This document shows positions 10,669 to 63,811 of a stretch of DNA of 64,000 bases, piece after piece; position 1 is the stretch's first letter; each line of letters begins with the position of its first letter. Where the stretch lies: positions 1 to 64,000 of the forward strand of contig NZ_CP101158.1 in NCBI RefSeq assembly GCF_024298845.1, in the 5' to 3' direction. The stretch comes from Natronosalvus amylolyticus. GTDB lineage: Archaea > Halobacteriota > Halobacteria > Halobacteriales > Natrialbaceae. The notes under the pieces were generated by a model. The model made no database searches. It worked only from the letters and a program-made list of their open reading frames with translations, and was not told where the DNA came from. The position numbers and the translations under genes were made by a program.

Positions 10669-10699
10669 TTAATATTGTTGGCTGAGACACACCCTTTCA

Positions 10700-12262: not shown

Positions 12263-12289
12263 TGGGTGGGTCTTTCAGATTCTCTCTAA

Positions 12290-12301
12290 TGTAGTACTAC
12301 A
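12290..12301. repeat. TGTAGTACTACA palindrome 3
   Basis: Perfect copy 28 bp to the right of the inverted origin box and just beyond the end of the leftward operon. Confidence 0.7.
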
Positions 12302-12323
12302 CCGATCGGTCGAGATAGTCTGT

Positions 12324-19424: not shown

Positions 19425-22400
19425 TTAAACTCGAGGCACCGTGCGTTCGAGGCCCATCACCCAGATTTCGAGCGCCCACGCATCGAGCGTCGTGAATACG
19501 AACGCAAGCCACGACGGCCAGCTAATATCAGGTACACGCAGGTCAACCCAATGCTCGAGGCGGTCGCCCCACCCAGCGTCTTCGATCACTTCGACGGACT
19601 CGAGGCTACCTGTATCGTCAGTGTAGGTGACTACCACCTGCGAATCATCGTACTCGAGCACCTCACCGTGGCGAGTGTCGCCGTCGACGGTGAACGCAGC
19701 GCCGTTGCGCCAGTGGACACCTTCATCTGAGTCGTAGTTCTCGAGATGGATGAATACGGGAACGTGCCCCTCGAGTTCCTCGCCCGTTTCAGTCTCGAGC
19801 GTGACCGAAAACTCGTGGTCGGTGCCCGAAAGCACGCGCTCTGGTTGAACGTGAAACTCTCCGGGCGACTCATCGACGGTCGCTTGTACGTCGATCACCC
19901 CGCCACTGCGTTCGACGGTCGCGGCTTCGATGCCCTCAGTTGCTACCGCGTGCATACCGAGCGGGGATGCACCCACACGTAGCGTGGCCCTGTCTGCTCG
20001 AGAGCCCGCACCCACGCGAAGGCGTTCACTCACGACGAACTGGCCGCCATCGGTCGTCTCGAGCGTGACGCGCAGGTGATGGACGCTCTCACTTTCGGGT
20101 TCGAACGTGAGTCGATCATCGGTGATACTGACGGGCTGGGTGTCGCTATCGGCGTCGAACAATTCGGCGTCGACGACCGTCGCGGGTGCAGCTTCGGCGT
20201 CAGTGTTCACATCGATGGAGACGCGTTCGCCGGGTTCGGGCTCGAGCGTCGACACCAGCAGGGACTCGAGACCTGGCAAATCGCCATCGAAGCCGGGATT
20301 TCGCGCTTGCTCGCTTCCAGAGCCATAGCCATCGTCGCCCGTGACGTGAACCTCGAGCGTTACCACGCCCACGTTGTCGCCCTCGAAGGGGTTCTCCGTG
20401 AGCGTCACAACGTTGCCTGCAAGGAAGCCATCGGATTGCACTTCCCAGTAGGCGCTGTCGATCGGGACTGTCTCGCCACTCGAGGTATGAGTCAACACGA
20501 GTACGTCGTCAGTGTCGATATCGCTAGGCACCGGGAATTCGAGATCCAACAGGCCGGGCAGTTCGCCATCACTGATATCGGTATAACCGCCGTCGTCGAT
20601 TCCAGGGTCGACGGTGACCGATTCCTCGAGTTCATCCAGACGCTCGAGCAGCGTTTCGAGGTCCTCGTTATCGTCGCCGGTCAGTTCGGCTTCCAGATCC
20701 TCGAGTTCCGATTCGAGGAACGCCTCGAGTTCATCTACGAGATCGGCTTGTTGCTCGCCCGTGATCTCTTCGAGGCGTTGGACCCAGCCGTCCAGGTCCT
20801 CGAGCGATTCGTTGAAGAACGCCGCTTCAAGTTCTGAGAGCAGGTCATCGAACGCCTCGAGTTCTTCGTACGGCAGGGTTGGCGTCCGATAGACCGTAAG
20901 CTGAACGCCCTCATCGGGCGGTGCGTACGTCTGCATCGAGGTTTCAGGCGTCGGGACGAACAGGTCACTCTCGAGGCCGTGCAAATCCTCGAGTGACGGG
21001 TCGTCGGGCAGTTGGGTTTGATCCGGCGTAGCGACGGGATACAGCGACACAGTTTGGACGCGCTGGTCAATCTCGAGTGTGAATTCGCCGTTCTCGTCGG
21101 TCGTCGTGGTTTCGGTCACGAGCGTTTCCTCAGCGGTGAGTGATTGAATACGCTCTGCGCGCTCGGTGAGTTGGTCGGCCTCATCGCGAAGGTCGTCGAT
21201 CACCTGCTGGGCGAGTTCGTCCGGGTCGCCCACGGTGAACGTGACGCCAAGACCCTCGTTGCTTTCGGGATAGGTGTGATAGACGCCTGGTGGCAGGTTC
21301 GTCCGGACGGCGTGATGGTCGTTCGTCGTCAGTGGGTTGACGCCCGTGGACGTTGCCACGACGTGTGTCTCGAGGGTTCTCGAGTCGGTCGTCTCGCCCG
21401 TGGGTGCGAGTTGGTCGATTATGATGGTGCCTTCGACCGCAGCGCCGGGAAAGCTCTGGTCGACTTGATTCTCGAGTAGGCCGCCATCTTCGGTCGGGTC
21501 CCACAGCGAGATAACGACGTCGCGGTTCTGGTCAACCGTGACGCGTGGGTCGTCGATACTCGAGGCGAAGATCGTCGTCGTACCCACACCCCAGTCGCCG
21601 GGCTGATGAACCAGCGTGTAGGTGGCGTCGGCGTCAGTATGCGCGTCGAAATCGTAGTCGGCGTCGAAGCTATCGGGGAGCGGGTCCTCGAGTTCTTTCA
21701 GTAACGCGTTGGCTTCGGCCTCGAGTTCCGTTTCGTCCAGGCCATCGAAGCCAACGTCCGTGACGCCTGTCCCCGTGATTGTGGCGTTCGCGACGGGCTC
21801 GCCGCGCGTGTCCGTGAGCGTCCCTGAAAGCGTGGCCGTGGATGTGATCGAAGCGGGGAAGCGGTAGGCGTCACCGTCGCCTGCAAGATCATGGACGTAC
21901 CAGTTCCCATTGAACAGGTACATCGAGCGTGTCTGTTCTTCGTACGTTCCCGTCTCCGGTGTGGCCTGGTAGGTATCGATCTGCGTGCCATCGGTATCGA
22001 ATTCGTACACCGTATCGTCGGTGTTGGCTTCCATCACGAACACGCGGTCGTTGACGACGTGCAGCGGGTTGATCGGCTCGAGGCCCGTCGTGATCGTGTC
22101 GATCTGCTCGAGGTCGCTATCGTACACCTGGATATCGGAATCGTCAGTGACATACAGGCGGTCGCCATCGGCGTCGATATTCCACGGACTCTCGAAATCA
22201 TCGACGACATCGATAGGTGTGCTATCGAGTTGGGTGAAATCATCATCGTACGTGTGCAGGGTGTCGTCTTCCCAGTTGGCGATAATCCACTGCCCGTCGA
22301 AGCGCGTGATACCGCTTGCGCTATGGCTGAGCGTGTGTTCGTCGACGACTTCGAAGTCAGTTTTGTAGACGACGACTCGAGTAACCTGATCGGTGACGAC

Positions 22401-22673
22401 GTACAGTAGCCCATCCTTTTCGTGGCCGTCGTTATGGAACGGGTCGCCATCTTCGGTCGCGACGGGATCGCCACCGCCCTCGAAATTCTCGGTATCTGTG
22501 GTTTGTACGTGGGTTTTGGTCTCGAGTGAGGGATTCGAGGTTTCGAGATCGGTGTCTGTGGCCCCGCTCGAGAGACCGGTCGGTACAACAGCAATCGCTA
22601 GGATTGAGGCGACGAGGAGGGCAGACAGCGCAATAGCGCCGACGCTCTCCCGTCGCTCGAGGAGTGCGAACAT
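19425..22673 (-). CDS. giant secreted propeller/carboxypeptidase-regulatory-domain protein
   Basis: A 1082-residue surface protein. Residues 12-32 are a signal or anchor helix (GAIALSALLVASILAIAVV). Residues 85-275 have propeller-like repeats (DRLYVTDDSDIQVYDSDL is one). From 280 a carboxypeptidase-regulatory-like domain starts (SGTLTDTRGEPVANATITG), followed by a body with DWGVGTTTI, VDQSFPGAAVEGT and HHAVRTNLPPGVY. Residues 595-690 are Glu-rich coiled coil; a further beta region and a hydrophobic C-terminus follow. The body is paralogous to the protein at 49065, while the N-terminal head differs. A GCAACACCCCAAGCA box ends four bases before the ATG. Confidence 0.85.
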   Translation of the reverse strand: MFALLERRESVGAIALSALLVASILAIAVVPTGLSSGATDTDLETSNPSLETKTHVQTTDTENFEGGGDPVATEDGDPFHNDGHEKDGLLYVVTDQVTRVVVYKTDFEVVDEHTLSHSASGITRFDGQWIIANWEDDTLHTYDDDFTQLDSTPIDVVDDFESPWNIDADGDRLYVTDDSDIQVYDSDLEQIDTITTGLEPINPLHVVNDRVFVMEANTDDTVYEFDTDGTQIDTYQATPETGTYEEQTRSMYLFNGNWYVHDLAGDGDAYRFPASITSTATLSGTLTDTRGEPVANATITGTGVTDVGFDGLDETELEAEANALLKELEDPLPDSFDADYDFDAHTDADATYTLVHQPGDWGVGTTTIFASSIDDPRVTVDQNRDVVISLWDPTEDGGLLENQVDQSFPGAAVEGTIIIDQLAPTGETTDSRTLETHVVATSTGVNPLTTNDHHAVRTNLPPGVYHTYPESNEGLGVTFTVGDPDELAQQVIDDLRDEADQLTERAERIQSLTAEETLVTETTTTDENGEFTLEIDQRVQTVSLYPVATPDQTQLPDDPSLEDLHGLESDLFVPTPETSMQTYAPPDEGVQLTVYRTPTLPYEELEAFDDLLSELEAAFFNESLEDLDGWVQRLEEITGEQQADLVDELEAFLESELEDLEAELTGDDNEDLETLLERLDELEESVTVDPGIDDGGYTDISDGELPGLLDLEFPVPSDIDTDDVLVLTHTSSGETVPIDSAYWEVQSDGFLAGNVVTLTENPFEGDNVGVVTLEVHVTGDDGYGSGSEQARNPGFDGDLPGLESLLVSTLEPEPGERVSIDVNTDAEAAPATVVDAELFDADSDTQPVSITDDRLTFEPESESVHHLRVTLETTDGGQFVVSERLRVGAGSRADRATLRVGASPLGMHAVATEGIEAATVERSGGVIDVQATVDESPGEFHVQPERVLSGTDHEFSVTLETETGEELEGHVPVFIHLENYDSDEGVHWRNGAAFTVDGDTRHGEVLEYDDSQVVVTYTDDTGSLESVEVIEDAGWGDRLEHWVDLRVPDISWPSWLAFVFTTLDAWALEIWVMGLERTVPRV

Positions 22674-40271: not shown

Positions 40272-40353
40272 ATCCGTCTTGTTCACGGTGTGATTAAATA
40301 ACCGCTCTGGGGTGGTGTTCGGATATTCGGATAACTCTAAATCGGAACCTACA

Positions 40354-43950: not shown

Positions 43951-44979
43951 CTACTCGAGTACGTCCTCGAAATCCATCAACTGCGTCGTTGTCACCTCAT
44001 ACGTTCGCCCACGTTTCTGGCCGTGTAACTCAACGATATCGTAGTGCTCCATCTTCTGCAAGTAACCAGTCACCGTTCGTTTCACCACTGGATCGCGAAC
44101 CCGCTGCTCGTACTGCTCGTATATCTCACCGATGGATTGCTCGCCCCCTTCGACGAGGATTTGATACAGAACCCGCTGATCGGCGGTGAGTTTCGAAATC
44201 GTCGCGCGCAGTAACTCTTCGCGAGCGTCACCCAACACGGACTCGATATCTTCTTTTCTGACACGCTCGCCACCACGTCGGTCGGCGTGCTCGAGTGCGT
44301 TTTTCAAAATTGCAATCGCAAAGCGGGCGTCCCCTCCAACACGGTCGGCTATCACCTCCAGATGTGGCTCGCTGATCACCTCCCCACGGGTGGCCGCCTC
44401 AGTTCGCTTTCGGAGGATGGACACCAACTCATCCTGCGTGTACTTCTTGAACTCCACGGCGGGGTAGCCAGCCAGTCGGCTATGCACCCTCGAGTCCAGC
44501 CGTGAGTAGAGGTCTTCGCGCTCGTTTGCAATCAACAAGAGCGTGATGTGAGGCATTTCGTGCAGCGGTTTCAGTAGGCGGTCATCCTCGAGTTGGTCTA
44601 CTTCGTCGAGGACGACCACGTAGGGATGGTCGACTTCGGCTTTGAGCTTCGCAATTAGGTCGTCTTTGGGCTCGCCACGCCGTCTGAAAATGTCGTACCC
44701 CTCGAGAACACGCTTGAGGGTGGCTCCGTACTGGTAGTTCGCCCAACAGTCGATGAGGGTAGTTTCGATCTCTGGTGAGCTAGCTTCCAGCCGCTCGAGG
44801 AGGAACTGTGTCGTGTGGGTCTTCCCGACGCCCGTGGGTCCATGAATGAACGCACCGTCGACGCGCTGGTTGTCGGTGATTGGCTCGAGGACCTCCGAGA
44901 GATAGTTGATTTGATCGTGTCGATGGAGGATCTCCGCTGGCTGGAAGTCAGCCTGGAGGACCTCCGAATTGGTTATCAT
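43951..44979 (-). CDS. Orc1/Cdc6 family initiator, third copy
   Basis: A 342-residue AAA+ protein with Walker A IHGPTGVGKTHTTQF, Walker B VVVLDEVDQLEDD, sensor LLLIANERED and a C-terminal winged helix (VKRTVTGYLQKMEHYDIVEL). It shares LDEVDQLE with the 39225 copy, suggesting a common origin distinct from the origin-linked copy. The promoter region has GGTAATATTAAG about 20-30 bases upstream. No origin boxes seen nearby. Confidence 0.9.
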   Translation of the reverse strand: MITNSEVLQADFQPAEILHRHDQINYLSEVLEPITDNQRVDGAFIHGPTGVGKTHTTQFLLERLEASSPEIETTLIDCWANYQYGATLKRVLEGYDIFRRRGEPKDDLIAKLKAEVDHPYVVVLDEVDQLEDDRLLKPLHEMPHITLLLIANEREDLYSRLDSRVHSRLAGYPAVEFKKYTQDELVSILRKRTEAATRGEVISEPHLEVIADRVGGDARFAIAILKNALEHADRRGGERVRKEDIESVLGDAREELLRATISKLTADQRVLYQILVEGGEQSIGEIYEQYEQRVRDPVVKRTVTGYLQKMEHYDIVELHGQKRGRTYEVTTTQLMDFEDVLE

Positions 44980-47946: not shown

Positions 47947-48270
47947 ACTCGAGGCTCACAACCGAGTGCTAAGAATGTGGGTTATTCCCGGCCTCGATGA
48001 TCGAACCATCTCCTCGCTCTTCACCCACTCAAATATTGCTTTACACAGTCTGAACAATTTTTGTGGTTGCTGGTGAACACTTATTTATACGAGCGGGAGA
48101 ATGTCAGTAGTAACTATAGCTCAGGTTCCAACGTGTCTCTGACACGGCTCACATCCCTTGGCGTCGACGCTTGATAGTGCTCGAGGCCCTCGAATGTGGG
48201 CTTGTTGGGCTTGAGCAGAATAGTACTAACAGTCACCAGCGCTTCTCGCGGCTCAGACAACACCCCAAGC
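47947..48270. other. promoter region of the surface block
   Basis: AT-rich TTATTTATA (about 48083-48091) and CAGTAGTAACTAT (48103-48115), the latter like promoter cassette 3, precede the 48257-48271 box that touches the ATG. This is the likely control point for the rightward envelope block. No reliable gene within. Confidence 0.5.
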
Positions 48271-48271
48271 A
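48257..48271 (+). promoter_or_regulatory. GCAACACCCCAAGCA box
   Basis: ACAACACCCCAAGCA (preceded by G) whose final A is the first base of the ATG at 48271. Confidence 0.72.
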
Positions 48272-48969
48272 TGACTACGAACACGAAATCCTCGAGAGCG
48301 ACAGCCAAAGCTTCAGCTTCAGCGTCGACCTCTTCATCGTCACAATCATCCTCCCCCTATCCACGCCGAAACTGGTGGGGTGAAGACGTCGATGGCACCG
48401 ACACTGACACGAATACGGAGACGAGCGAGCCACAGCCGGTCAACTACGAACGCGAACGAGCGGCCTGGATCGCCCACCGAATCCTGAAAGAGACGGCCAC
48501 GTTGGCCTGCCCGATTACGCTGAACGAACCGCCAAATAACCCGGCTGCACTGTGGCAGTGGCTCGAGCACGGCGAAGCCGACAGCGGGCATGACCCATCG
48601 GCGCTGCATCGGGCGAACGAAGTCATCGAGTTGACTGACGCCGAGTACTGGGTGCCCTGTGAGGATAGCGACGACCTCGCCAACGGGTATGGCCCACATC
48701 CCAGTCGGGTAAACCTCGAGTATGGCTACATTGCTGGCCCCCAGATTCTCGACCGGCCAACGGCGGCGTTCATGTCAGTTGTGAACGCGCTGTTAGACCA
48801 TTTCGAGTGGTCGCCAAAGGTTGGGTTGTCCTCGCGCGAGCGCGAGAAACTCGAGTGCCATGCCGAGCGCCTGAAACGCAACGGCGATTGGCGAGATACG
48901 GATGTCCTCGCTGAAATCGTGTATGAGGCGACGAGTGAGGGTGCAGTTTTGGGTGGTGATGACGAATGA
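48271..48969 (+). CDS. hypothetical protein, first gene of the surface block
   Basis: A 232-residue soluble protein. A Ser/Ala/Thr-rich N-terminal tail (about 60 residues) precedes an alpha/beta domain (ERAAWIAHRILKETATLA...LWQWLEHGE). Start 48271 is set by the box abutting the ATG; the frame extends upstream but without coding character. No family recognised. Confidence 0.62.
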   Translation: MTTNTKSSRATAKASASASTSSSSQSSSPYPRRNWWGEDVDGTDTDTNTETSEPQPVNYERERAAWIAHRILKETATLACPITLNEPPNNPAALWQWLEHGEADSGHDPSALHRANEVIELTDAEYWVPCEDSDDLANGYGPHPSRVNLEYGYIAGPQILDRPTAAFMSVVNALLDHFEWSPKVGLSSREREKLECHAERLKRNGDWRDTDVLAEIVYEATSEGAVLGGDDE

Positions 48970-49064
48970 GGGTTGTAGGTGGGTGTGGTCTTGAGAGGGT
49001 TGCGAGTCGGGTGAAACGAGCTGGCTGCAAGCCAGTGGTGACCAACTAAGGAGAATTTGTAATC

Positions 49065-52000
49065 ATGAGACAATCAGCGAACTCGAGAGACGAATCGCTC
49101 GCTACCAGACTTTGGAAATCGATCAACTCATCCATGCCGTCTATCACTTACAGTCAGATATTCACCATTTTGGTGGTGTTTTTGATGGTAACAAGTCTAA
49201 GTTTCTCCGCGATGGCAACAGGTGGAATGGATCGCGTGGAGGATCGGACTACCGAGTCCAGTTTATTAACACAAACTTTTTCCGAGGAGGAACCAACAGA
49301 GTACGCCGCCGTTTCTGACGGTCTTGGTAATGTAAGATTGATAGACACTTCTGATGGATCAACTATCTGGACGGCTGATGTAACGGGCTCTTTTACCGAG
49401 TCGGTCCAGATAGGACCGAATCGGGAATACGTATATATGGGTGATACTAATGGAAATGTCTATATCTTATCGTTTGATAATGGTGAAACGATCGATTCTT
49501 GGCAACCACATGCCGATACTGTGACAGATATACGAATTCCGTCAGATGGTGAAAATATGTACACTGTCGGGGACGATTCTTATTTAAGAGTGACTGATTT
49601 AAGCACTCAATCAGAGGAGTGGAGAATAAGTTTAGACGACTTTTATGTATGGTCGTTAGCTATTTCGGAGGAGCATAATTTAGCATTTGCTGGTACGTAT
49701 GGGGGAATGGTAAAGGCTGTAGACTTAGACACTCAAACTATTGAATGGCAAAGGGATGTTGGTTCCCGAACCCACGATTTATCAATATCTGACGATGAAT
49801 CGTCATTAGCAGCCGTTGCTAATCGTGAAAACATATATAATTTAGATCCAGAAACAGGGGATATTTTAACACAATATCATGATAGCAATAGTTATTTCCG
49901 AGGTGTTGGAATATCTCCCGAAGGTGACAAGACTGTTGCTGGTAATAATGACGGCTACCTCGTCGCTTTCGATAGTGACGGAAATGAACTTTGGTCAAAA
50001 ACCCCTCACACTGACTCCGTTCGAGCTGGCGCAATAACGCCAAATGGGATATATACCGCTAGCGGTGACAGTGATGTGAAAGGGTATGATAGTAGTGGGG
50101 GCGAGGAATGGACGAACTCAATGTCTAGTGAGATATGGTCGCTCGATTTGACATATGACACTGGTGAATCGATTACCGGCCAAGTAACCGATCAATCCGG
50201 CGACCCAGTTAATAACGCCACGGTCGAACACTGGGGCATCTCCGAAACCGTCTTTGACGAAAGCGCCATCGACGACCTCGAGTCAGAAATCACATCCCTA
50301 GAGCAGGACCTGAACGACCTCGAGCCCGAAGACTGGCAAACCTTCACCGACGACTTCGCCGATGCAGCGGGCTCACCGATGCTCGATCTCGAGGCCTACC
50401 GAGATGACATAGGCGACACTACGTACCCACTCGTACACGAGGAAGAGGACTGGGGCGTCGGCACCACAACCATCATCTCCTCGAGCGTCGACGACCCACG
50501 GATCACGACCGACGCCGACCAGCCAGTGATCATCTCGCTGTGGGACCCCGACGAAGGGGGCACGTTCATCGACAACCAGGTTGACCAGAGCTTCCCCGGC
50601 GCAACCACCGATGGCACCGTAGTTATCGAACAACTCGGACCCAGTGGCATCGAAGACACACGCACGGTGGACACCCGATCGATCTACGAAACCACGGGCG
50701 CTACGCCGTGGTCGACCAACGAACATCACGCTGTCCGAACCTCGCTTCCCGAAGGCGTCTACCGTGTCTACCCCGATGGCAATCCAGCAGCCAGCTACAC
50801 CTTCACGGTGGGCGAACCCGACGCAATCTTCGACTCATGGACCGCAGACCTCGAGAATCAACTGACGAATCTCGGGGACCGGGCAGACATCCTCTCGGAC
50901 GAAATCAACTTGCGCGAAAACGCCGACTTCGATCACCTCGTGAACGAAGGCATTGCCGTCAGAGAACGAACCACGACCAACGAAACGGGCCACTTCGAAC
51001 TCGAGGTCGACTCATCGGTTCGGACAGTGAACGTCCAGGCGTACAAGGCTGATGGCGAAATTCTCGAGATTATCGAATCCGCCGCCGATGGCGAGGACCC
51101 ATCACTCGATGACGTGTCGATACAAGACCTTCGTGAGTACCGTTTGGATGGCTACAACGGCTCCTTTTACCTTCCGATGGGGACCACTACGGTCGACACT
51201 ACACAGGAAGAAATCGACCCGATCGAAGTACAGGTCTACCGGTCGAACGGTTTGCCGCTTGATGATATTGACCGCTTCGAGGAACTGCAAGAGTGGCTCG
51301 AGAACGAGTTCTTCGATCAGAATCTCACCGACTTCGAAAACCAGTTTGAAGACTTGATTGAGGGCCTGGAGAACGAAGAACTGGATGAATTTTACGAACA
51401 ACTCGAGGGCTACGCCGAACACAATGACGAACTTCGCGAGCTGATCGAGGAGTTCGATGAGAACGACGACCTGGAAGACCGAATCATCGAACTGCAAGAG
51501 AAAATCGACGACTTGGAAACGATCACAGCCGCACCGGGTGACGGCGAAATCGACGACGGCCTCCTCGAGTTTTCACAGGTATTCCCAATGTCTATCGATG
51601 ACGCTATCGTGACCATCGTCTACGAGAACGGTGACGCCGAAACCGTTCCCGAAGAGTACGTCACGGTCCAATCAGCCGGGATTCTCAGCGGTGATGAAGT
51701 CGTCGTCGAGGGCTACGAAATCGACACTGACCGGGCCGTCGCAGACGTTCGCGTCCAGACGGTGGGCGAGAACCGAATCGCGACGGGCTCGAGTCCAATC
51801 CCGAATCCGGCATTCCAGGGGAGTGTCGCTGAATTGGATGCCGTCCAGTTCTCGACGCTCGCTCCCGGGCCGGACGAACGCCTCACGGTCGGCCTCACGC
51901 CTTCGGATGGCACGGAGTTCGAGCAGATCACGAGCGTCGAAGCGTTCAACGGCAACGACGAACAGATAGACGCCGAAATCACTGACGACGATCGCGTGTC

Positions 52001-52772
52001 CTTCCGGACTGACGGCGAAGGCGTCCATACGGTTCGGATGACCTACGAATCAGCTTCCGGTGACACCTTCCAGGTGACTGAACGCGTTCGCGCGGGCGAA
52101 GCACCGGGCACCGACCGGGCGGTTATCCGTGCAGGCAAGACCGCCGTTGGGCCACACGCAGTCGTGGGGGCAGACCTCGAGAGCGCCCGGATTACCGAAG
52201 CCGATGACGGCACGCTCGAGATTGACGCCATTATCGGGCAGGGAGAGAACCCACCGGGCGAACTCCACGTGATGCCCGAACGAATCCTGAGCGGCGACGT
52301 TCACGAACTCGAGATATCGATTTACGAGGGCGACCTGGAACGCCAACTCGAGGACAGCCACGTCGCCGTCCAAATTCACTTCGATAGCTACAGTGAAGAT
52401 GCTATCGCGTGGCGCGACGGTGACGCCATCTATCGCGGTGGGGATACTCGCCACGGCGAGGTACAAGAACGCGAGAGCGGCAACTCCATCTTGAGTTCCT
52501 ATACACACGATGACGGCACGATCACAATAACCGTCAACGCTGATCCGAATCGACGTGACCGGTTCCGTCACGCCATCGATCAGTACTGGCCGTCGTTCGA
52601 TTGGGACGACCTCTCGCCGCTGATGACTGACTTGCTCATGTTCCTCACGTACACGCTCGAGGCCACTGTCGAAACCACGGCTCTCGAAGCGCAGACGACG
52701 GCGACACTCGAGACGGCTACCCAACCCGTAACGACACCAGCCACCGCCGGAGCTACAGAGGTGATAGTATGA
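49065..52772 (+). CDS. giant secreted beta-propeller surface protein
   Basis: A 1235-residue protein. Residues 30-52 form a signal or anchor helix. Residues 76-365 are a WD40/PQQ-like propeller with repeated blades such as NVRLIDTSDGSTIWTADV and GNVYILSFDNGETIDSW. A carboxypeptidase-regulatory domain begins at about 366 (SITGQVTDQSGDPVNNATV). The conserved body (DWGVGTTTI, VDQSFPGATTDGT, HHAVRTSLPEGVY), a Glu-rich coiled coil (735-815) and a Thr/Ala tail follow. The first 1.1 kb is AT-rich without CTCGAG; from about 50.17-50.27 kb composition is like the flanks. AAGGAGAA precedes the ATG. The stop overlaps the subtilase start. Confidence 0.88.
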   Translation: MRQSANSRDESLATRLWKSINSSMPSITYSQIFTILVVFLMVTSLSFSAMATGGMDRVEDRTTESSLLTQTFSEEEPTEYAAVSDGLGNVRLIDTSDGSTIWTADVTGSFTESVQIGPNREYVYMGDTNGNVYILSFDNGETIDSWQPHADTVTDIRIPSDGENMYTVGDDSYLRVTDLSTQSEEWRISLDDFYVWSLAISEEHNLAFAGTYGGMVKAVDLDTQTIEWQRDVGSRTHDLSISDDESSLAAVANRENIYNLDPETGDILTQYHDSNSYFRGVGISPEGDKTVAGNNDGYLVAFDSDGNELWSKTPHTDSVRAGAITPNGIYTASGDSDVKGYDSSGGEEWTNSMSSEIWSLDLTYDTGESITGQVTDQSGDPVNNATVEHWGISETVFDESAIDDLESEITSLEQDLNDLEPEDWQTFTDDFADAAGSPMLDLEAYRDDIGDTTYPLVHEEEDWGVGTTTIISSSVDDPRITTDADQPVIISLWDPDEGGTFIDNQVDQSFPGATTDGTVVIEQLGPSGIEDTRTVDTRSIYETTGATPWSTNEHHAVRTSLPEGVYRVYPDGNPAASYTFTVGEPDAIFDSWTADLENQLTNLGDRADILSDEINLRENADFDHLVNEGIAVRERTTTNETGHFELEVDSSVRTVNVQAYKADGEILEIIESAADGEDPSLDDVSIQDLREYRLDGYNGSFYLPMGTTTVDTTQEEIDPIEVQVYRSNGLPLDDIDRFEELQEWLENEFFDQNLTDFENQFEDLIEGLENEELDEFYEQLEGYAEHNDELRELIEEFDENDDLEDRIIELQEKIDDLETITAAPGDGEIDDGLLEFSQVFPMSIDDAIVTIVYENGDAETVPEEYVTVQSAGILSGDEVVVEGYEIDTDRAVADVRVQTVGENRIATGSSPIPNPAFQGSVAELDAVQFSTLAPGPDERLTVGLTPSDGTEFEQITSVEAFNGNDEQIDAEITDDDRVSFRTDGEGVHTVRMTYESASGDTFQVTERVRAGEAPGTDRAVIRAGKTAVGPHAVVGADLESARITEADDGTLEIDAIIGQGENPPGELHVMPERILSGDVHELEISIYEGDLERQLEDSHVAVQIHFDSYSEDAIAWRDGDAIYRGGDTRHGEVQERESGNSILSSYTHDDGTITITVNADPNRRDRFRHAIDQYWPSFDWDDLSPLMTDLLMFLTYTLEATVETTALEAQTTATLETATQPVTTPATAGATEVIV

Positions 52773-54373
52773 GCCGACGCAACGAGCGACCGATTTCGAG
52801 ACGCCACTTCCTCAAAACCGGGCAGGCGCTCGCGGTCACCGTCGCCACGCTCTCACCGACTGCCTCGGCGCTTCGCTCGAGAGTCCGTGGCTGGTCACCG
52901 CCCTCGGATGCTGTCTCACACTCGAACGACCGCTATAGTTGGCTCTTCCACGTCGAGGAAGGCAAGATGGACCGTCTCGAGGACTGGATCGAACGCAAAG
53001 ACCACCGTCGCCTCGAGTCGCCCTACACGCACGCACCGACGAACCGCGTGATGGTCGTCGCCAAACCCGCCGATATCGGCGTTCGCAACCGCGACCAGTT
53101 GTTCGCGAGTGACGTACTCTCGGAAGCCTCGTGGGTACGCTCTGGCACAATCGAACTCAATCGCAAACGCCATCTGGCCGACCCAATCGACCTCGATTCT
53201 ACCCGCGACACGTCCATCCACGATACCTCGTGGGCACAACGGCGGTGGCTCAACTTCGCCGCCGAAGGCGTTCCATCGACGACGGGCGTGGCCTTCGAGG
53301 GCGATATGGAGGAGACGACGATGTTGGATTCCCGTCGCCACACAGGCGCGCTCACCAGCCACCTCGATGAATACGGCCTCGAGTGGCCCGACGCCTCGAA
53401 CGTCGCGCTCGCCGTATCGGATACTGGTATCAATGATGGCCCGACGTTCGAAGCCGACGATGGCACAACCCGGATTCTCGAGACCTCGAAAAACCACCTC
53501 GATAGCGAGACGGGCGTTGAGGCTATCACGGACGGTAACGGCCACGGGACTGCGGTGGCCTCTTACGCTGCGGCCAACTCCTCGAGAACCCACCGTGGGT
53601 ATGCACCCGACGCCCAACTGCTCGGACTGAAATCCCTGGATGATGGGGGCGCTGGTGAAACAGCCGATATCGCAGATTCGATCACCTACGCCGCCGATCA
53701 GGGCGCAGACGTACTCGTGATGAGCCTTGGATCGTTCGCCTACAGCGCAACCATCCAACGCGCACTCGAGTACGCTGTCGACTCCGGCACGATTCCGGTC
53801 GCCGCCGCCGGAAACGACCGCCAATTCTCTCGCTGGCTGGCAACGCCGGCCTCGAGCGACCACGCTATCGGCGTCGGGGCCACGACGGTCGAATCACCGG
53901 AAGACACTCTGAGTGCGTACTACTCAAATACGGGGCCACACGACGGCCTGATCGACACCTCTGGCGGGGAAACTGCCGGAGCAATGCCGACGATTGGCGC
54001 TCCGGGCTGTAAGACCGTCGCCGAAGTCGTTTCGACACGCGGCACTGTCGATCACGTCGATTACACGGGTACGAGCATGGCCGCCCCACACGTCGCGGGC
54101 GTCATTGCCCTGCTCGTAGCTCACGAGGGCCGCCTTGAGTACGAGGACGTGATAGATCGACTCCAGGCCGCCGCTTCGCCGGTTCCTAACGCCGCCGAAG
54201 AGGAAGTGGGCGCTGGCCTACCACACGTTGCCCGGACGCTCGCGGGTGTCGAAAGCGAGGAAACACAGGCTGAGGCGATGACGACCGAAGCTCGAGAGCG
54301 CGGGCTCGCGTACGACGCCCTGTCGAATTACCCGCTCACCCAGATTGCGGGCACACTCGAGTCCTGGTACTAA
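52769..54373 (+). CDS. Tat-exported subtilisin-like serine protease
   Basis: A 534-residue S8 protease. ISRRHFLKTG is a twin-arginine signal. Catalytic Asp is in ALAVSDTGIN (about residue 217), His in GNGHGTAVASYA (about 258), Asn in AAAGND and Ser in YTGTSMAAPHVAGV (about 436). The N-terminal 150 residues are likely a propeptide. It is coupled to the giant protein gene, which suggests that it matures or releases that protein, or processes recipient surface proteins; inferred. Confidence 0.93.
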   Translation: MSRRNERPISRRHFLKTGQALAVTVATLSPTASALRSRVRGWSPPSDAVSHSNDRYSWLFHVEEGKMDRLEDWIERKDHRRLESPYTHAPTNRVMVVAKPADIGVRNRDQLFASDVLSEASWVRSGTIELNRKRHLADPIDLDSTRDTSIHDTSWAQRRWLNFAAEGVPSTTGVAFEGDMEETTMLDSRRHTGALTSHLDEYGLEWPDASNVALAVSDTGINDGPTFEADDGTTRILETSKNHLDSETGVEAITDGNGHGTAVASYAAANSSRTHRGYAPDAQLLGLKSLDDGGAGETADIADSITYAADQGADVLVMSLGSFAYSATIQRALEYAVDSGTIPVAAAGNDRQFSRWLATPASSDHAIGVGATTVESPEDTLSAYYSNTGPHDGLIDTSGGETAGAMPTIGAPGCKTVAEVVSTRGTVDHVDYTGTSMAAPHVAGVIALLVAHEGRLEYEDVIDRLQAAASPVPNAAEEEVGAGLPHVARTLAGVESEETQAEAMTTEARERGLAYDALSNYPLTQIAGTLESWY

Positions 54374-54378
54374 TCCCT

Positions 54379-55242
54379 ATGACCGACAGCACACCCACCC
54401 AAATGAGCGCAAGCGACAGCCAACACCAGGGCTCTCGAAGCCGACGTGGCTTCCTCCGAACGCTCCCGACCTCGCTTACGCTGGGTACTATCGGGTCTGT
54501 CCAGTCAGCGACCGCCAACGAAGGCACCGAGTACGAGTGGGTCAATGACGGTGACTATATCGAGCGTACGTTCGACGAAGACACGCTCCTCGAGTGGGTA
54601 CCGTTCCTCAATATCTCGAGTGACGCCCGCCGCAAATTCATCGGCCTGTACGGGTTCACCGCCCGATCACCGGATCACGATACCGACGCCCACTGCTTTT
54701 GGGCGCGGTACACTCACCAAGAGTCGGCAGCCGATGATATGGGATTCTGGGACGAAGCCGCTGGCTGGATGAGCTCAGATTCTCACCTTTGGGATCACGA
54801 GCCATCTACGATTTTCACCGATAGCCAAACCGGTGAGTTCCGGAAGGCAATCGCCACGGGCTACCATCACTACCCACTCGAGATATCGGCGATGAACGCA
54901 CCACTGACACAGTTCTACGGCACTCGAGATAGCCACCTACACCTCAACGTCGTCGACCCGTGGCACCACTATACGGTTGACCATAATGAGCAGGGCCAGG
55001 ACCCAACTTATTTCGGGCGCTTTGAATCGTTCATCGCGAACCGCGATTCGTGGGAGGAGCAGAACATCTTCAAAAACTCGAACCCACTGGCAATCGACAA
55101 CCCGTGGGCGCTTGCAGATGGCCGGGCCGATTCCTGGTGGGACGAAAGCACTCGTGACGCGCGTGCAGCCCGCATCTGGGCCTACCTCGGCCTACGCGGG
55201 GCCGGTGACGTTGACTCGAGTGTCCTACCAGCCCTCTACTGA
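54379..55242 (+). CDS. Tat-exported protein
   Basis: A 287-residue secreted protein with twin-arginine signal (GSRSRRGFLRTLP) and mature domain rich in His, Trp and Asp (TDAHCFWARYTHQ, YHHYPLEIS, DPWHHYTVDHNE), suggesting metal binding. No family recognised. It starts five bases after the subtilase stop. Confidence 0.75.
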   Translation: MTDSTPTQMSASDSQHQGSRSRRGFLRTLPTSLTLGTIGSVQSATANEGTEYEWVNDGDYIERTFDEDTLLEWVPFLNISSDARRKFIGLYGFTARSPDHDTDAHCFWARYTHQESAADDMGFWDEAAGWMSSDSHLWDHEPSTIFTDSQTGEFRKAIATGYHHYPLEISAMNAPLTQFYGTRDSHLHLNVVDPWHHYTVDHNEQGQDPTYFGRFESFIANRDSWEEQNIFKNSNPLAIDNPWALADGRADSWWDESTRDARAARIWAYLGLRGAGDVDSSVLPALY

Positions 55243-55379
55243 AATCATGATCCAAACACTACATCCGAGATACTCAGCAGGCGGTGTACCCCCACCTCTG
55301 AGTGATCCAACCCCACACTCGAGTACAGCCCGCTAACCAACCTCCCGATCTCGTTCCTTTTAGGAACACTCCGAATCCA

Positions 55380-56483
55380 ATGAGACACTTCACCAAACTC
55401 ACTGCCGTGTTCATGCTGCTCGTCGTCGCGATGGCGGCCATGACCGGCTCCGTTGCAGCCGCAGAATCACCCGTAATCACTACCGAAAGCGACCTCGACG
55501 AAGGCGTTACCGTCCAGAACTTCAACGCCTCGAGTGAGCAAACCTCAACACTTCAGTTCGAGACGGACACGACCGTCGACACTAACTCCGTGTCGGTGAC
55601 GATCGAAGCCCAAAACGGTACTCACTACGACAAAGACGACAACTACGCCGACTACGAACTTGTCGAAGAGAATAACGTCGATGGCAACGACGTTCACGCG
55701 TTCAACATCGGCCACGACGACCTCGAGACGGTGCCGATCGACGCCAACGGCACGACCGATATCGACATCACGGTCGCACACACGTACACTGACACCGAAG
55801 GCAACACGGTCACCGACGAGACGACCATCACCGTAACGCTCGAGGCGACCAACGAGCGAACCGTACTCTTCGTGAACGAGGAAGCGCTCGAGAATGACGA
55901 CGTTGGCCCGGAGATCGACGTTGACGAGTACGAATCGCCGTGGTACTCAAGCGATGACGACACACCGGACACCTACCACATCGAAGACGATCTCGCCATC
56001 GACGGCGCGAACACGACGGTCTACGTGTTCTTCGACCACGATGACATGGCTGAGGCGTTCGACACCGAAGCCGATTCGGAGTCGTTCATCTCGGATCTGA
56101 CGTTCTTCGATACCGATGAGGAGACCGTCTACCGCGTCTACGCCGACTCGCCCGGTGACGCGACCGACGCCGACGAGGATACCTACATGCTGGTTCACAG
56201 CAACTCGCTGGAACTCGTCATCGGTGACGAGTACGACGGCGAAGAGTCCCTCGAGGGCCACGTTGGAAGCCACGCACCTGGCGACCTCGATGACGTTGGC
56301 TTCTGGGACCTCCAGAGTACGTACTTCGACCTGCAAGACATGAGCTTCCTGAGCCTGGACTTCGCGTCGACTGATTTCTGGGAGTCGCTCTGGGATGCGC
56401 GCTCGGCTAACGGCGGGCTGCTGCCCGTCCTGTCCGTGATGGCCGGTGGCATTGCCGTGACCCGTCGCCGTCCGGGGGCCTAA
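55380..56483 (+). CDS. secreted protein with C-terminal membrane anchor
   Basis: A 367-residue protein. Signal peptide TKLTAVFMLLVVAMAAMTG, an acidic Asp/Thr-rich extracellular part, and a C-terminal hydrophobic helix ending in basic residues (LPVLSVMAGGIAVTRRRPGA), like haloarchaeal surface proteins anchored at the C-terminus. ATG 55380 is chosen because the signal peptide starts there. Confidence 0.75.
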   Translation: MRHFTKLTAVFMLLVVAMAAMTGSVAAAESPVITTESDLDEGVTVQNFNASSEQTSTLQFETDTTVDTNSVSVTIEAQNGTHYDKDDNYADYELVEENNVDGNDVHAFNIGHDDLETVPIDANGTTDIDITVAHTYTDTEGNTVTDETTITVTLEATNERTVLFVNEEALENDDVGPEIDVDEYESPWYSSDDDTPDTYHIEDDLAIDGANTTVYVFFDHDDMAEAFDTEADSESFISDLTFFDTDEETVYRVYADSPGDATDADEDTYMLVHSNSLELVIGDEYDGEESLEGHVGSHAPGDLDDVGFWDLQSTYFDLQDMSFLSLDFASTDFWESLWDARSANGGLLPVLSVMAGGIAVTRRRPGA

Positions 56484-58249: not shown

Positions 58250-58617
58250 GCCGTCTCAAATCCGCCGCTCGATGGCCGTTCGCAGTCACCCGACAGCACC
58301 TCGGAAACATCTGGGCCGTCTTACAAACTGTCTCACTGGGTGACCTACTCCCGCCGTGGCTTCGTGAAAATATCCGAGACACCTGGAAATGGCTGAAACA
58401 ACAGGTCCCGAACGTCGTCGGCTATCGGGCAACGCCGTACGAGCAGATGGTTGCCAGCGTTGCGCTAGCCCTTGTGATGGTCTTAGCTAGCCTCGGGATA
58501 CTGACGTGGTTGGCACTCGTGATGATCGTCCCGTTCCTCGTGGGTGCAGCCCGCCTCAATCCGGTGGTCGATCGGGCGTGGCCGCTCGCCGACACAAACG
58601 GAGGTGAGCCGGTCTAA
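58246..58617 (+). CDS. membrane protein
   Basis: A 123-residue protein. An amphipathic N-terminus (RQHLGNIWAVLQTVSLGDLL) precedes a hydrophobic stretch (MVASVALALVMVLASLGILT...LVMIVPFLVG) likely crossing the membrane twice. Coupled to both neighbours. Confidence 0.65.
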   Translation: MSRLKSAARWPFAVTRQHLGNIWAVLQTVSLGDLLPPWLRENIRDTWKWLKQQVPNVVGYRATPYEQMVASVALALVMVLASLGILTWLALVMIVPFLVGAARLNPVVDRAWPLADTNGGEPV

Positions 58618-58922
58618 TGCGCTGGGTTCCAAACCTCGAGTTACGTCGCCGGCTTCGGTCGGGCACACTGCTCACGTTCCGTGGGCTGTCGATCGTCGCC
58701 TTCGTCGTGATCATGGGATTGCTCGTGGCGCTCACGCTCCCAACCAGCCCCGTTTTCGCCGGCATTCTGGCGACGTTCATCCTGTTTTTCATGCTCCGAG
58801 CTATGATGCCCGTCGAGAAGATCGATGCCGCCGTGAACGCCCTGCTAACGGGCGAAGCGGGCGAACGCGCGTATCTCTGGCTCGAGAACCGAGTCTCGAG
58901 ACTCACTGGGTGGTTCCGATGA
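58617..58922 (+). CDS. two-helix membrane protein
   Basis: A 101-residue protein with two membrane helices (about residues 16-40 and 42-60) between basic ends. The start follows directly on the upstream stop (TAATG). No family recognised. Confidence 0.65.
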   Translation: MRWVPNLELRRRLRSGTLLTFRGLSIVAFVVIMGLLVALTLPTSPVFAGILATFILFFMLRAMMPVEKIDAAVNALLTGEAGERAYLWLENRVSRLTGWFR

Positions 58923-59947
58923 CAAAAGACACCAAAACCAACACACGCGCTCGAGTGCTTTCCGTCACGCTCGCTGCGTTACTCGTGGCCTCTCTGGTCA
59001 CGTTCGGCTTAGGACTCTCGAGTACGGCACTCGCAGACACCGACGCAGACGCCGTGTGTGAACCAGAGCGCTCAATCACCTACGATGAGTTCCGTACCGA
59101 CCAGGCGACCGTCGACGAAGCCAACCACACTGGGTCGACAGACGTGAGCAAAGACAACACGCTCGCGACCATTGAGGGGGGTGAGGCGTTCCACCGCGTC
59201 ACGCTCGAGAACCCTAACTCCTACTGTGTCGAATTCGAGTTGCAAATCTCTGAGGAGCTGGTAACGCCATCGACGATTGGCACGATATCGGGGAGCGAAC
59301 TCGAGGGGTTTGAGGATTACCCAACGCCCAAAGCGTACTGGGAGTCAACCCATAGCTTCGACCAAGACGAGACGTACACGCGGATCACGGTGACGATGCC
59401 TGCCGAAAGCCAGGCACTGTTCGCACCGTCGAAAGCTCGCGTCGAAGGCCTCTCGTGGATCGGTGAAGGCGCTGCTGCCGCCGAAGGCTTACAGGATCGA
59501 CTCGTTAGCTCACTCGGATTCGGGTCGGACCTCGAGACACGAGAGTACACACTCGAGGGCAACGATAGCGAGACGGTCACAATCGATCTGGTAAACCCAC
59601 AGACGGGTGAGCCACTCGAGGATTGGCACGCCACCTACACGGTCGATGGCAGTCACGATATTCCACTGGATAGTGGCTCTGACGAACCGGTGTACTACCG
59701 CGAACTGACTGACGACGATGGCGACGTCACGGCTATCGAGATCACGTTCAACGAAGCCGCCGAACTCGAGTTCACGGCTGATCCACGTGTTCGGGACACC
59801 CTGAGTTACGACCTCACGTCCTTCGAGGCTGACCTCCGGGCCTTAATGGGGAGTATCAACCTCCCGTTCATGGTCGTCGGTGAGCCAACCACCATGCCGC
59901 TGCCGACACTGACGGATGTTACAACCGGATTCGAGGTGAGTCCATGA
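58919..59947 (+). CDS. secreted surface protein
   Basis: A 342-residue protein. Signal peptide LSVTLAALLVASLVTFGLGL; the mature part is beta-rich and acidic, with two Cys (DAVCEPE and NSYCVEF) that might form a disulfide. C-terminal hydrophobic patch SINLPFMVVGEPT. Coupled to both neighbours. Confidence 0.72.
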   Translation: MTKDTKTNTRARVLSVTLAALLVASLVTFGLGLSSTALADTDADAVCEPERSITYDEFRTDQATVDEANHTGSTDVSKDNTLATIEGGEAFHRVTLENPNSYCVEFELQISEELVTPSTIGTISGSELEGFEDYPTPKAYWESTHSFDQDETYTRITVTMPAESQALFAPSKARVEGLSWIGEGAAAAEGLQDRLVSSLGFGSDLETREYTLEGNDSETVTIDLVNPQTGEPLEDWHATYTVDGSHDIPLDSGSDEPVYYRELTDDDGDVTAIEITFNEAAELEFTADPRVRDTLSYDLTSFEADLRALMGSINLPFMVVGEPTTMPLPTLTDVTTGFEVSP

Positions 59948-60864: not shown

Positions 60865-61461
60865 ATGAGTACAACCACCAATCCCGATTCCACAGAACAC
60901 TCGCCGAAACAGAGTGAGAAACAACTTGACCGACTGCGAGACAAACTCGGTGACGCCGAGTTCATCAACGACCCCGAACTGACCGAACGCGTAAGGCAGT
61001 GGGAGAAACGCTCGTTCGAACTCCCAGCAGGCGACGTTGAAGAGCATATTGAGTCCCAGATCACGGACCTGAAAGCCAGCGGCTACGCTATGTTCGCTCG
61101 CGAGGGGCTCGAGGATGCGACCGACGAATTCCCCGATGCGTGTAGCAAATGCCCACACTACGGCGGGGGCTGTCCAATCGCCACCCAGCGTGTGGTTCGC
61201 CAGGAGGTGAGCCGTATCGTAACGCAGGCCGAGACGGATTCGGCGTTCCGACGCGAAATGCGCTCGCTTGCCGAAGACTATCGCTGCCACCGGATACCGG
61301 AGTGGCTTTCGGAGTGGTCGAATCGCTACACCGAAATCATCCAAGAGGGCCTCGAGTTACAGCGCGAAATCGACAAGCAAATCCAATCGATGGCGTCGAA
61401 AGGCGCACAGAAACGCGTCGACCTCCGGGCTGACGACGATGAGAACGGAGGCCACCGATGA
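60865..61461 (+). CDS. Cys-cluster helical protein
   Basis: A 198-residue cytoplasmic helical protein with CSKCPHYGGGC (about residues 93-103) and another Cys in DYRCHRI, which could ligate zinc or an iron-sulfur cluster. Coiled-coil ends (KQLDRLRDKLGD and GLELQREIDKQIQSM). Coupled to the next membrane protein. Confidence 0.65.
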   Translation: MSTTTNPDSTEHSPKQSEKQLDRLRDKLGDAEFINDPELTERVRQWEKRSFELPAGDVEEHIESQITDLKASGYAMFAREGLEDATDEFPDACSKCPHYGGGCPIATQRVVRQEVSRIVTQAETDSAFRREMRSLAEDYRCHRIPEWLSEWSNRYTEIIQEGLELQREIDKQIQSMASKGAQKRVDLRADDDENGGHR

Positions 61462-62501
61462 ACTGGGCGCTAATCGCCGTTGCGATCCTCGTTTCCGCCG
61501 CTATCGTATTCGCTGCTTGGTGGCTCTCGCGTTCGATGCGTGACGACACAACCGACGCTACAGAGCGCGTCCAACAGGACTCGAGCAATCCCGATCGGTC
61601 GGGTGACCCAGCCCACAAGAAGGGGTCAACGAGAGTCCCGATACGCGACCGGGCGAAGGCCACCTCGAGAACCGCAAAGGTGTTTTTCGGTTCACTCGCA
61701 CTGCTGGGAATCATCCTCGCTGTCTTCGCCTACCAGACGCTTCGGACGGGCTCACCTGCGGAGGTGATGTTCTCTGATCAACTGCTAACGGCGCTCAAAG
61801 TCGGTATCGGCGTCGTCGCGGGTATCATGATATCGAATATCGGCCAGCGGTATGAGGGCCAACTCATCAACGTCTACGAGGGTGACGATGGCAACACGCG
61901 CGAAGAGATTATCCCCATCGACGTTCGCAACGTCGGCAGTGACGAAGGTAACCCAATCGTTAAAGAGTACTCCCAAAGCCGTCTATTCGGCGTTTTCCGA
62001 CGCTACAAGCACTGTGCTGAAGAGCCAGAACTCGAGAACACCCATCGAGCGCCGGGGAAGGTGATCGAACACCAAATCCCCGATCACGCCTTCCAGGTCG
62101 ACTCGACGACGTGGGTTAACCTCACGACCAAACAAAACGATACCGAGAACCCCGATACGCGACCGGATTACGTCTACTCAAGCCCGGTCGAACTCTCCTA
62201 TGAGAAATATATCGACATGAAACAGAAGATTCGCCGTCAGGACACTAAAATGCGAGGGCTCGAGGCCACGCTCGCCACCGTCGAACGCGAATTCTCGAAA
62301 ATCGAGCGCCTCCTCCTGAGCGGTGACCACAAAACCGAACAGGACGTTCGCAACCAGATCAAAGAAATCGCTCAAATCCTGGGGAGCGTCTCTGGCTTCG
62401 GCGAGACGATGAACCAAGAGGCCCGGTCAACCTACGTCGATACTGGCGGGAACGGGCAACAACCCCAACAGGCTCACCCAGACGGGGGTGAGCGACGATG
62501 A
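61458..62501 (+). CDS. three-helix membrane protein with cytoplasmic coiled coil
   Basis: A 347-residue protein. Membrane helices at about residues 3-22, 73-95 and 108-126 are followed by a soluble domain and a coiled coil (MRGLEATLATVEREFSKIER, about 272-291). The layout could link membrane components to a cytoplasmic ATPase. No ATP-binding motif of its own. Confidence 0.68.
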   Translation: MNWALIAVAILVSAAIVFAAWWLSRSMRDDTTDATERVQQDSSNPDRSGDPAHKKGSTRVPIRDRAKATSRTAKVFFGSLALLGIILAVFAYQTLRTGSPAEVMFSDQLLTALKVGIGVVAGIMISNIGQRYEGQLINVYEGDDGNTREEIIPIDVRNVGSDEGNPIVKEYSQSRLFGVFRRYKHCAEEPELENTHRAPGKVIEHQIPDHAFQVDSTTWVNLTTKQNDTENPDTRPDYVYSSPVELSYEKYIDMKQKIRRQDTKMRGLEATLATVEREFSKIERLLLSGDHKTEQDVRNQIKEIAQILGSVSGFGETMNQEARSTYVDTGGNGQQPQQAHPDGGERR

Positions 62502-63811
62502 AGCCCGCCTGGACTCGAGCGCTTACGCTCGCACTCGTGGCTCTATTTCTGTGTTCGATGGCCGTTCCGCTGGCCGCCGCCGACACGAGTGCTGGCCCAT
62601 CGATCGATCACGCTCACAGCTCTGTTTTCGCTCAAGAAAACAACGAGACAGCGACGAACGAAAGTGACGCCGGTAACGATACAGAGACAGACACCGATTC
62701 GGACGAATTCGAGGATAGCAATGTCTCGGACGGCGAACCCGGCCTCGCTGATCGGGTACGCGTCTCGCCTGTCTCACTCGGTGACGAAGACTGGCTCGAG
62801 ACAACGACTGAGGATTCAGACGAAGCGTTCAACACCACTGGCCCGTTCGCTCTGTTCACGCTTTCAGAACCCGCTGAGAACGTTCGGATAGCCCAGAGTG
62901 ACGCCGAGGCCACACTGCTCGAGGGCGACACCACAATCCTCGTCGAGTACGAACCCGGCGCGGCTGGTTCCTCGAGTACGTTCTTCGAACTCGAGGTTTT
63001 CTTCCCCGATAGCTCTACCAGTTCGATCGATCTCTATGCGACGAGTACCGAAGTCTCGGCAGCAGCAGCGGAACTCGAGGCCTACGGCGGGCTTATCGAC
63101 GATATGCAAGACTCCGCCGAAGAGGAAGGCTACGACACCGACCCAAGCGGGCTCGAGGACTACTACGATTGGCGCGTCGAACGCGCTACGCTCGTTGATT
63201 CGTTCCTCGTCGAACGGGCGGCCCAACTCCTTATCTTGGCGATTATGGCCGCCGAGAACCCGCTCGTGTGGATTCTCATACTGCTCTCGATTGCCGTGGC
63301 CGCCTACCGCCGCGAACAGGCTCACGGCTGGATTCTCGACCGGATTGAGAACGATTCGGGTGAAACAGCGAGACAGCAAGAGCAACTTGAGGCAGAATAC
63401 CGCCGCGACAAGCAGACGGCCAATGAGGAATTCATCGGCGAACTCCCACAGATCAACGACCAACAGGCGGTGTACTGGAACGATAGCTTCGATATCCACA
63501 GCACGCTCCAACTCGCCGAACTCGCACTCCGTGGTCCGCGAGACCTCGAAATCTCTAGTGACGCGCAACCGGATGGCGGGCAACCGGAATCAGCAATCGC
63601 CGAACTCGAGGCTGAAACCATCCACAATTCGTGGCTGGCCGAAGTGTACACGACCAACCGTCTGAGCGGCCCGCGTGAGGCACTCTCCTGTCTCAAAGCC
63701 GCCCTGATCCGCATGGAAGCCACCTACTCGATGGGTCACCGCTACTCCGGAGTCAGAAACGACGTCGAACAGCTACTCGATGAGATCGACGAACTCGAGC
63801 GAGGATTCTGA
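62498..63811 (+). CDS. secreted/membrane protein with cytoplasmic helical domain
   Basis: A 437-residue protein. Signal peptide (LALVALFLCSMAVPLAAA), acidic extracellular domain (to about residue 240), a membrane helix (LLILAIMAAENPLVWILILL) and a charged cytoplasmic coiled-coil tail ending in a helical repeat-like region. A single-pass topology with both sides structured fits an envelope-spanning complex. Confidence 0.72.
   Translation: MKPAWTRALTLALVALFLCSMAVPLAAADTSAGPSIDHAHSSVFAQENNETATNESDAGNDTETDTDSDEFEDSNVSDGEPGLADRVRVSPVSLGDEDWLETTTEDSDEAFNTTGPFALFTLSEPAENVRIAQSDAEATLLEGDTTILVEYEPGAAGSSSTFFELEVFFPDSSTSSIDLYATSTEVSAAAAELEAYGGLIDDMQDSAEEEGYDTDPSGLEDYYDWRVERATLVDSFLVERAAQLLILAIMAAENPLVWILILLSIAVAAYRREQAHGWILDRIENDSGETARQQEQLEAEYRRDKQTANEEFIGELPQINDQQAVYWNDSFDIHSTLQLAELALRGPRDLEISSDAQPDGGQPESAIAELEAETIHNSWLAEVYTTNRLSGPREALSCLKAALIRMEATYSMGHRYSGVRNDVEQLLDEIDELERGF

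Follow-up and report, generated by a model that had tools for sequence, protein, structure and literature searches.

ORF6 of pR1SE-like plasmids, a large putative vesicle-surface protein, has three parts: a membrane/signal segment at the N-terminus and a body, both conserved, and between them an exchangeable head. In the gene studied here the head is a WD40/PQQ-like beta-propeller. In related elements the head is swapped as a unit for unrelated domains, with one break directly past the hydrophobic N-terminal segment and the other shortly ahead of the first domain of the body, and in most of the family this cassette is AT-rich at synonymous sites, whatever its fold. The front domain probably helps to choose the next host cell.

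The ORF6 gene of the window and its plasmid

The window, a 64,000-nucleotide stretch of Natronosalvus amylolyticus DNA, is part of a contig of 104,885 bases. Its open reading frame 49065-52772 (1235 aa) is homologous to ORF6 of pR1SE and belongs to a pR1SE-like plasmid-vesicle element (apHPV). pR1SE moves between cells in vesicles that hold plasmid proteins, and the apHPV family was surveyed in 2023; vesicle transfer has been demonstrated solely for pR1SE (PMC10818511). The body of the window protein (residue 367 onward) matches pR1SE of Halorubrum lacusprofundi (KX687704) and 16 other haloarchaeal plasmid records. As in pR1SE and the surveyed apHPVs (PMC10818511), the homologues of ORF5-9, 17 and 21-25 stand in the same order, ORF6 joins a conserved C-terminal part to a variable N-terminus, and a gene of an S8 protease adjoins it. 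The apHPV layout is present, with ORF6-9 at 49065-56483, cluster 2 from 58544 through G000:C3:69146 and a variable region between them; the second cluster extends past the window to G000:C3:72292. Identity to pR1SE products in blastp is 27% for ORF6, 30% for ORF8, 45% for ORF17 and 40-49% in the ORF21-24 region, the ORF numbers in cluster 2 being assigned by order. Replication genes, a common but not universal trait of apHPVs, are represented by MCM (34754-36823) and two Cdc6-like AAA proteins (39225-40367 and 43951-44979). The plasmid also encodes two DNA methyltransferases, of the N4/N6 and C5 type (14375-15742 and 28445-30202), which are possibly orphan or defence-linked.

Table 1. Features of the ORF6 gene, its neighbours and its paralogue in the window.
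Feature	Position	Strand	Evidence
Homologue of the pR1SE gene immediately upstream of ORF6	48196..48969	+	blastp vs pR1SE genes, 28% identity, 224 aa
ORF6 homologue: N-terminal anchor (hydrophobic signal/TM segment), GC3 0.60	49065..49184	+	hydrophobic maximum at residue 31; similar to L031 N-terminus
AT-rich head cassette, codons 40-384, GC3 0.36, beta-propeller	49185..50217	+	Pfam match at residues 78-311; WD40-like model, pLDDT 74
Conserved body, GC-rich; begins carboxypeptidase-regulatory-like, with Ig-like beta domains, coiled coils and a hydrophobic helix at the C-terminus	50163..52772	+	alignments, hmmsearch, low-confidence model
ORF7 homologue, subtilisin-like S8 protease	52769..54373	+	Pfam PF00082; 31% to pR1SE ORF7
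ORF8 homologue	54379..55242	+	blastp vs pR1SE genes
ORF9 homologue	55302..56483	+	blastp vs pR1SE genes
ORF17 homologue	58544..59947	+	blastp, 45% over 294 aa; ORF number from gene order
Three genes homologous to the ORF21-ORF23 region of pR1SE	60865..63811	+	blastp vs pR1SE genes
Second, stand-alone ORF6 paralogue	19425..22673	-	body 19428-21839; different propeller-type head 21840-22673

The window plasmid is unlike pR1SE in holding a second, stand-alone ORF6 with another head. ORF7-9 are absent beside this paralogue, and it shows little or no composition step. Its head belongs to a second propeller family, common to other stand-alone copies (L035, L099 and L106), which possibly form a domesticated subfamily.

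The head of the window gene matches the Pfam families PF13570 (E 1e-31, under the gathering score of that model) and PF13360 (above the cut-off). Its predicted structure is a WD40-type propeller with a TM score of 0.75 to the WD40 domain of TLE1, and beta'-COP WD40 domains are among its many matches to WD40 proteins. The model of the body is poor (pTM 0.27), with only generic Ig-like matches, and suggests coiled coils and the C-terminal helix. A search for the donor of the head did not find one: its best relative among ORF6 heads is 30% identical, the nearest relatives outside ORF6 are chromosomal propeller proteins (26-29%), and phage matches are weak. No silent head cassettes were found elsewhere in the genome, where the best matches (27-28%) are generic propellers. 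Scans of viral contigs with the whole protein, the body alignment and the head revealed no relatives, and a 20-kb megablast query had no match among phages or plasmids.

Exchange of heads on a conserved body

We assembled 54 ORF6 homologues from about 400 class-level genomes and from plasmid records. The 17-row body alignment was too divergent for a pattern scan, and a narrower alignment led to three named genomes. The body can be aligned throughout the 54 homologues, while the heads are propellers, beta-sandwiches, kelch domains (kelch repeats occur in the L045 head) or unclassified. Iterated profiles assigned 30 heads as propeller-like, 12 as beta-sandwich-like, 4 as members of the second propeller family, 2 as mixed and 6 as unclassified; L092 is counted among the 30 only through its N-terminal membrane region, shared with pR1SE, its head being unrelated to that of pR1SE. 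At least 7 changes between sandwich and propeller are needed on the body tree, and of the 51 pairs whose bodies are at least 45% identical, 27 show no similarity of heads (E<1e-3). In two homologues (L096 6830-11620 and L118 6411-10640) the heads match both sandwich and propeller profiles, apparently as two head domains in series. ORF7-8 of L032 span the start of its record.

The most direct case of replacement is offered by pR1SE and L092. Their products are 90% identical in ORF5, 86-92% in ORF7, 87% in ORF8, 79% in ORF9 and 81% in the ORF6 body, and the N-terminal membrane region of ORF6 also matches closely, while the heads, about 330 and 200 aa long, are wholly unrelated. The edges of the heads are sharp ('...VSAQ' and 'PFPGWEDTAP'), DNA identity falling from 75-90% to about 48% across the heads and then rising again. 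Both heads are AT-rich, with GC3 of 0.13-0.53 in 30-codon windows as compared to mostly 0.67-0.9 outside. A second case is the tandem pair of ORF6 copies in L034 (Halosolutus, 6695-13558), whose bodies are 69% identical and whose heads have no similarity, with the edge at the junction. The two copies have similar N-termini, one carries a propeller head and the other a sandwich head, so that a single element may present two heads.

The break behind the N-terminal segment is seen again in a pair of Halomontanus rarus strains, whose identity is 84-86% in the upstream DNA and over the initial 78 nt of ORF6. Past nt 78 the head, the body (34%), ORF7 and most of ORF8 differ together; homology returns weakly in ORF8 (68%) and strongly (81%) in the genes past ORF9. 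Exchange is therefore not always confined to the head. The ORF6 bodies of L042 and L105 are mosaic, with the last ~700 nt about 80-93% identical and the remainder about 40-75%.

The RefSeq start of ORF6 in pR1SE (L046 5912-10228, KX687704), at 7502, drops the AT-rich head, while the open frame from 5912 takes in the membrane region and the propeller. The ORF6 annotations of H. rarus are similarly shortened, and automatic gene calls may miss AT-rich heads.

The expectation of the earlier note that different heads would be found on a conserved body is borne out, at the DNA level by the pR1SE/L092 and L034 pairs and more broadly by the repeated changes of fold on the body tree. The note had also named a pattern that would speak against exchange, namely a head and body that always co-evolve together with the same composition step in all homologues; the step is indeed nearly general, but co-evolution is not seen generally. 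Comparative sequence data thus establish head exchange as a process in the ORF6 family, and we infer a swap in the window gene itself solely from these relatives. The conserved C-terminus and variable N-terminus of ORF6, with a WD40 domain in ~56%, have been published, and the published apHPV work says nothing of a synonymous AT-rich cassette, of sharp breakpoints or of heads exchanged between nearly identical elements (PMC10818511). As far as we have found, the AT-rich cassette signature, the breakpoints and the demonstrated replacements are new, unlike the variability of ORF6 N-termini.

Base composition of the head cassette

In the window, GC content is about 0.59-0.61 upstream of ORF6 (48400-48999), falls to 0.40-0.45 at 49200-50000 and is back at 0.60 at 50200. 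Along the gene, GC3 stays at 0.25-0.43 over codons ~91-330 and reaches 0.63-0.85 right past codon 390. Maximum-likelihood segmentation delimits a low-GC3 segment (codons 40-384, nt ~49185-50217) with GC3 of 0.36 inside and 0.70 outside and a log-likelihood gain of 57.7, as compared to at most 7.1 in 30 shuffles. The AT-rich propeller stretch that the earlier note had described in this GC-rich surface gene is thus confirmed, and so is its placing of the switch at the junction of the propeller with the carboxypeptidase-regulatory-like start of the body, which falls at residue 367 (nt 50163), 18 codons before the right edge of the segment. Every other core-cluster gene in the window has GC3 of 0.64-0.77. 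Among 121 control genes on the fetched loci, one outscores the window gene, but its GC3 of 0.00 over 820 codons probably reflects masked bases; a gain above 20 is reached by 5 of these controls and by 33 of the 54 ORF6 homologues. Elsewhere in the window, the gene 40354-40899 (- strand), adjoining a Cdc6-like gene (39225-40367) and a gene of the exonuclease VII large subunit (41281-42516), has GC3 of 0.275, below that of the head.

The absence of CTCGAG between about 49,100 and 50,270, to which the earlier note had drawn attention, is real: the sites at 49082 and 50277 have none between them, and this is the longest gap among the 382 sites of the window. It carries no extra weight, however, because the codons and amino acids of the head predict nearly no sites anyway; synonymous-codon shuffles give 0.02 sites with the codons of the head and 0.07 with the codon usage of the body. 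The gap was therefore rejected as separate support, and the observation in the window rests on GC3. CTCGAG is a genome-wide word, with 17,566 copies in 4.2 Mb as compared to 560 of the reversed word GAGCTC. The window has 382 sites where dinucleotides predict 35, and the body of ORF6 has more than 3-fold the number in synonymous-codon shuffles (17 vs. 5), a strong word bias for which we offer no explanation here.

The composition step is a property of the family. Head minus body GC3 averages -0.19 in the 54 homologues (Wilcoxon p ~1e-9) and -0.21 at fourfold sites, and GC3 drops by more than 0.1 in 40 of the 54 as compared to 3 of 54 in a within-body control. The low segment scores above all shuffles in 42 of the 54; in these 42 its right end lies at a median of 5.5 codons from the start of the body, and within 25 codons in 24 of them. 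GC3 ahead of the segment is usually high again, and that of ORF7, 8 and 9 matches the body. The step persists in heads and bodies that seem to have been inherited together (L101/L102 and L041/L046). In L101 and L102 the heads, with GC3 of 0.58 and 0.49, are 46% identical and the bodies 51%. Divergence of this kind is well beyond the saturation of synonymous sites. AT-rich N-terminal segments occur also in other genes near ORF6 (L096 13504-14874, L117 13103-14737 and L094 15053-16438), with GC3 of 0.35-0.61 vs. 0.81-0.92, and are perhaps further variable heads of vesicle proteins.

Because the step is family-wide and is kept in heads inherited with their bodies, it marks the cassette and not a recent swap. 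The claim that the composition break by itself points to a swap in the window gene is accordingly unsupported in that form. Comparison across the family indicates that low GC3 is a lasting feature of an exchange cassette that is chronically AT-rich, and would not date any single recent swap in the window plasmid. Two explanations of low GC3 remain, and they may act singly or together: steady, repeated import of heads from an AT-rich pool of halophilic elements, or the lack, in a segment without a recombining homologue, of the GC-raising force that acts on the body.

The second of these is a serious possibility, although we would not call it the probable one. It supposes that non-homologous heads cannot recombine together, and that the recombining body is subject to a GC-raising force (codon selection or GC-biased conversion) by which the heads are missed, which makes import unnecessary as an explanation of composition. 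The independence of the step from the fold of the head, the persistence of low GC3 in co-inherited heads and the visible recombination of bodies are in agreement with it. So is the acidity of the heads, which equals that of the bodies, points to halophiles as their most likely source and argues against non-halophiles. Most stand-alone copies have no step (10 rows, Fisher 5e-4), as this explanation would have it, but with phylogeny taken into account the contrast comes down to about 5 independent pairs and loses significance. Moreover, biased conversion towards GC is unproven in haloarchaea, and a report that GC content is not decisive for the direction of conversion (PMC8223754) counts against it.

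A single recent import into the window plasmid, of which low GC3 would be the scar, could account for the sharp edges and low GC3 of the window gene and for the lack of a close relative of its head elsewhere (30% at best, in an ORF6 head). It is quite unlikely, and as a sufficient explanation it is largely refuted, as the step is present also in 40 of the 54 homologues, in the heads of both pR1SE and L092, and in co-inherited pairs past synonymous saturation, such as L101/L102. That low GC3 is intrinsic to the propeller fold or to the protein sequence is extremely improbable: propeller heads do have the largest mean step (-0.25 vs. -0.13 in sandwiches), but the step is seen as well in sandwich heads and in unclassified ones, the difference between head and body remains at fourfold-degenerate sites, and the explanation was rejected on the homologous heads of L032 and L107, which are 47% identical and have GC3 of 0.79 and 0.49.

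Possible role of the exchangeable head

A simple hydropathy scan detects an N-terminal hydrophobic segment in all 54 homologues and a C-terminal one in 33. ORF6 has been detected in vesicles by mass spectrometry (PMC10818511) and is among the vesicle proteins predicted to be glycosylated (PMC10384203). We propose that ORF6 stands on the vesicle as a membrane-anchored stalk with head and body outside the membrane, that the head attaches to some variable envelope structure of the recipient, and that heads are exchanged by homologous recombination in the conserved flanks, which would change the range of cells entered by plasmid vesicles. This modular ORF6 with cassette exchange and a host-choosing head is our best explanation and, taken as a whole, a fairly probable one. 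The term 'recognition head' of the earlier note has the same footing: that the head recognizes the host we infer from its exchangeability, with moderate confidence. Infection by vesicles is independent of host N-glycosylation (PMC10384203), and a glycan from that pathway is therefore an unlikely ligand for pR1SE.

Several observations weigh against the proposed explanation. The survey of the family leaves the role of ORF6 unresolved and tentatively proposes ORF17, not ORF6, for host recognition (PMC10818511). For the head of the window gene no donor was found; exchange is sometimes larger than the head (H. rarus) and bodies can be mosaic (L042/L105). In the lineage of L040, L114 and L124 head and body evolve together and show no step, and the likeness of WD40 heads on distant bodies may in part reflect convergence of repeats.

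It is unlikely that ORF6 serves the vesicle as a structural scaffold or as its coat, with a propeller acting like those of eukaryotic COP coats and with neutral variation of heads. This was the original proposal, cited in PMC10818511, and beta'-COP WD40 domains are indeed among the structural matches of the head, but COPI matches are generic for WD40, the predicted signal/TM topology would place the head outside, unlike the cytosolic COP coats, and one kept fold would be expected where unrelated folds occur on the same body. Use of the head for exclusion or kin discrimination among co-resident elements, and not for entry into new hosts, appears very unlikely. Co-resident ORF6 copies do bear different heads (two in the window plasmid, two in tandem in L034) and two hosts have been reported with co-existing apHPVs (PMC10818511); an exclusion phenotype is not known, however, and co-residence itself speaks against strong exclusion (PMC10818511).

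A host-choosing ORF6 head would have parallels in other systems. In phage tail fibres and receptor-binding proteins, a conserved shaft carries an exchangeable distal domain, with recombination in conserved flanks. The conserved body and exchangeable head of ORF6 may be seen as analogous, but no sequence relationship to tail fibres was found, ORF6 is encoded by an archaeal plasmid and is a vesicle protein with a predicted membrane anchor, the whole fold changes and the effect on host range is putative. Like the spikes of pleolipoviruses such as HRPV-6, which trigger fusion on the host S-layer (PMC8875312, PMC10384203), ORF6 would be a surface protein of a membrane particle released from haloarchaea; it is far larger and modular, and no homology was detected. 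Variable surface genes of hyperhalophiles, with atypically low GC in Salinibacter ruber and reshuffled by recombination in Haloquadratum walsbyi, are also known (PMC2800850, PMC4535781), but these form many-gene islands in host chromosomes, while the step described here lies inside one reading frame of a mobile element.

For the choice of recipient cells by plasmid vesicles, the ORF6 cassette offers a concrete and testable candidate recognition module. The low-GC3 cassette is at the same time a sequence signature for finding further heads, and it provides a clean natural case, within one reading frame, in which to ask if exchangeable specificity segments are AT-rich by import or by inability to recombine. 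A broader view, in which doubts still slightly outweigh confidence, is that ORF6 heads are host-range modules of the whole class of vesicle-borne plasmids and circulate between elements as AT-rich cassettes, recognizable as a low-GC3 segment in a GC-rich gene. If this is true, these plasmids would be virus-like in their choice of hosts, without having a capsid.
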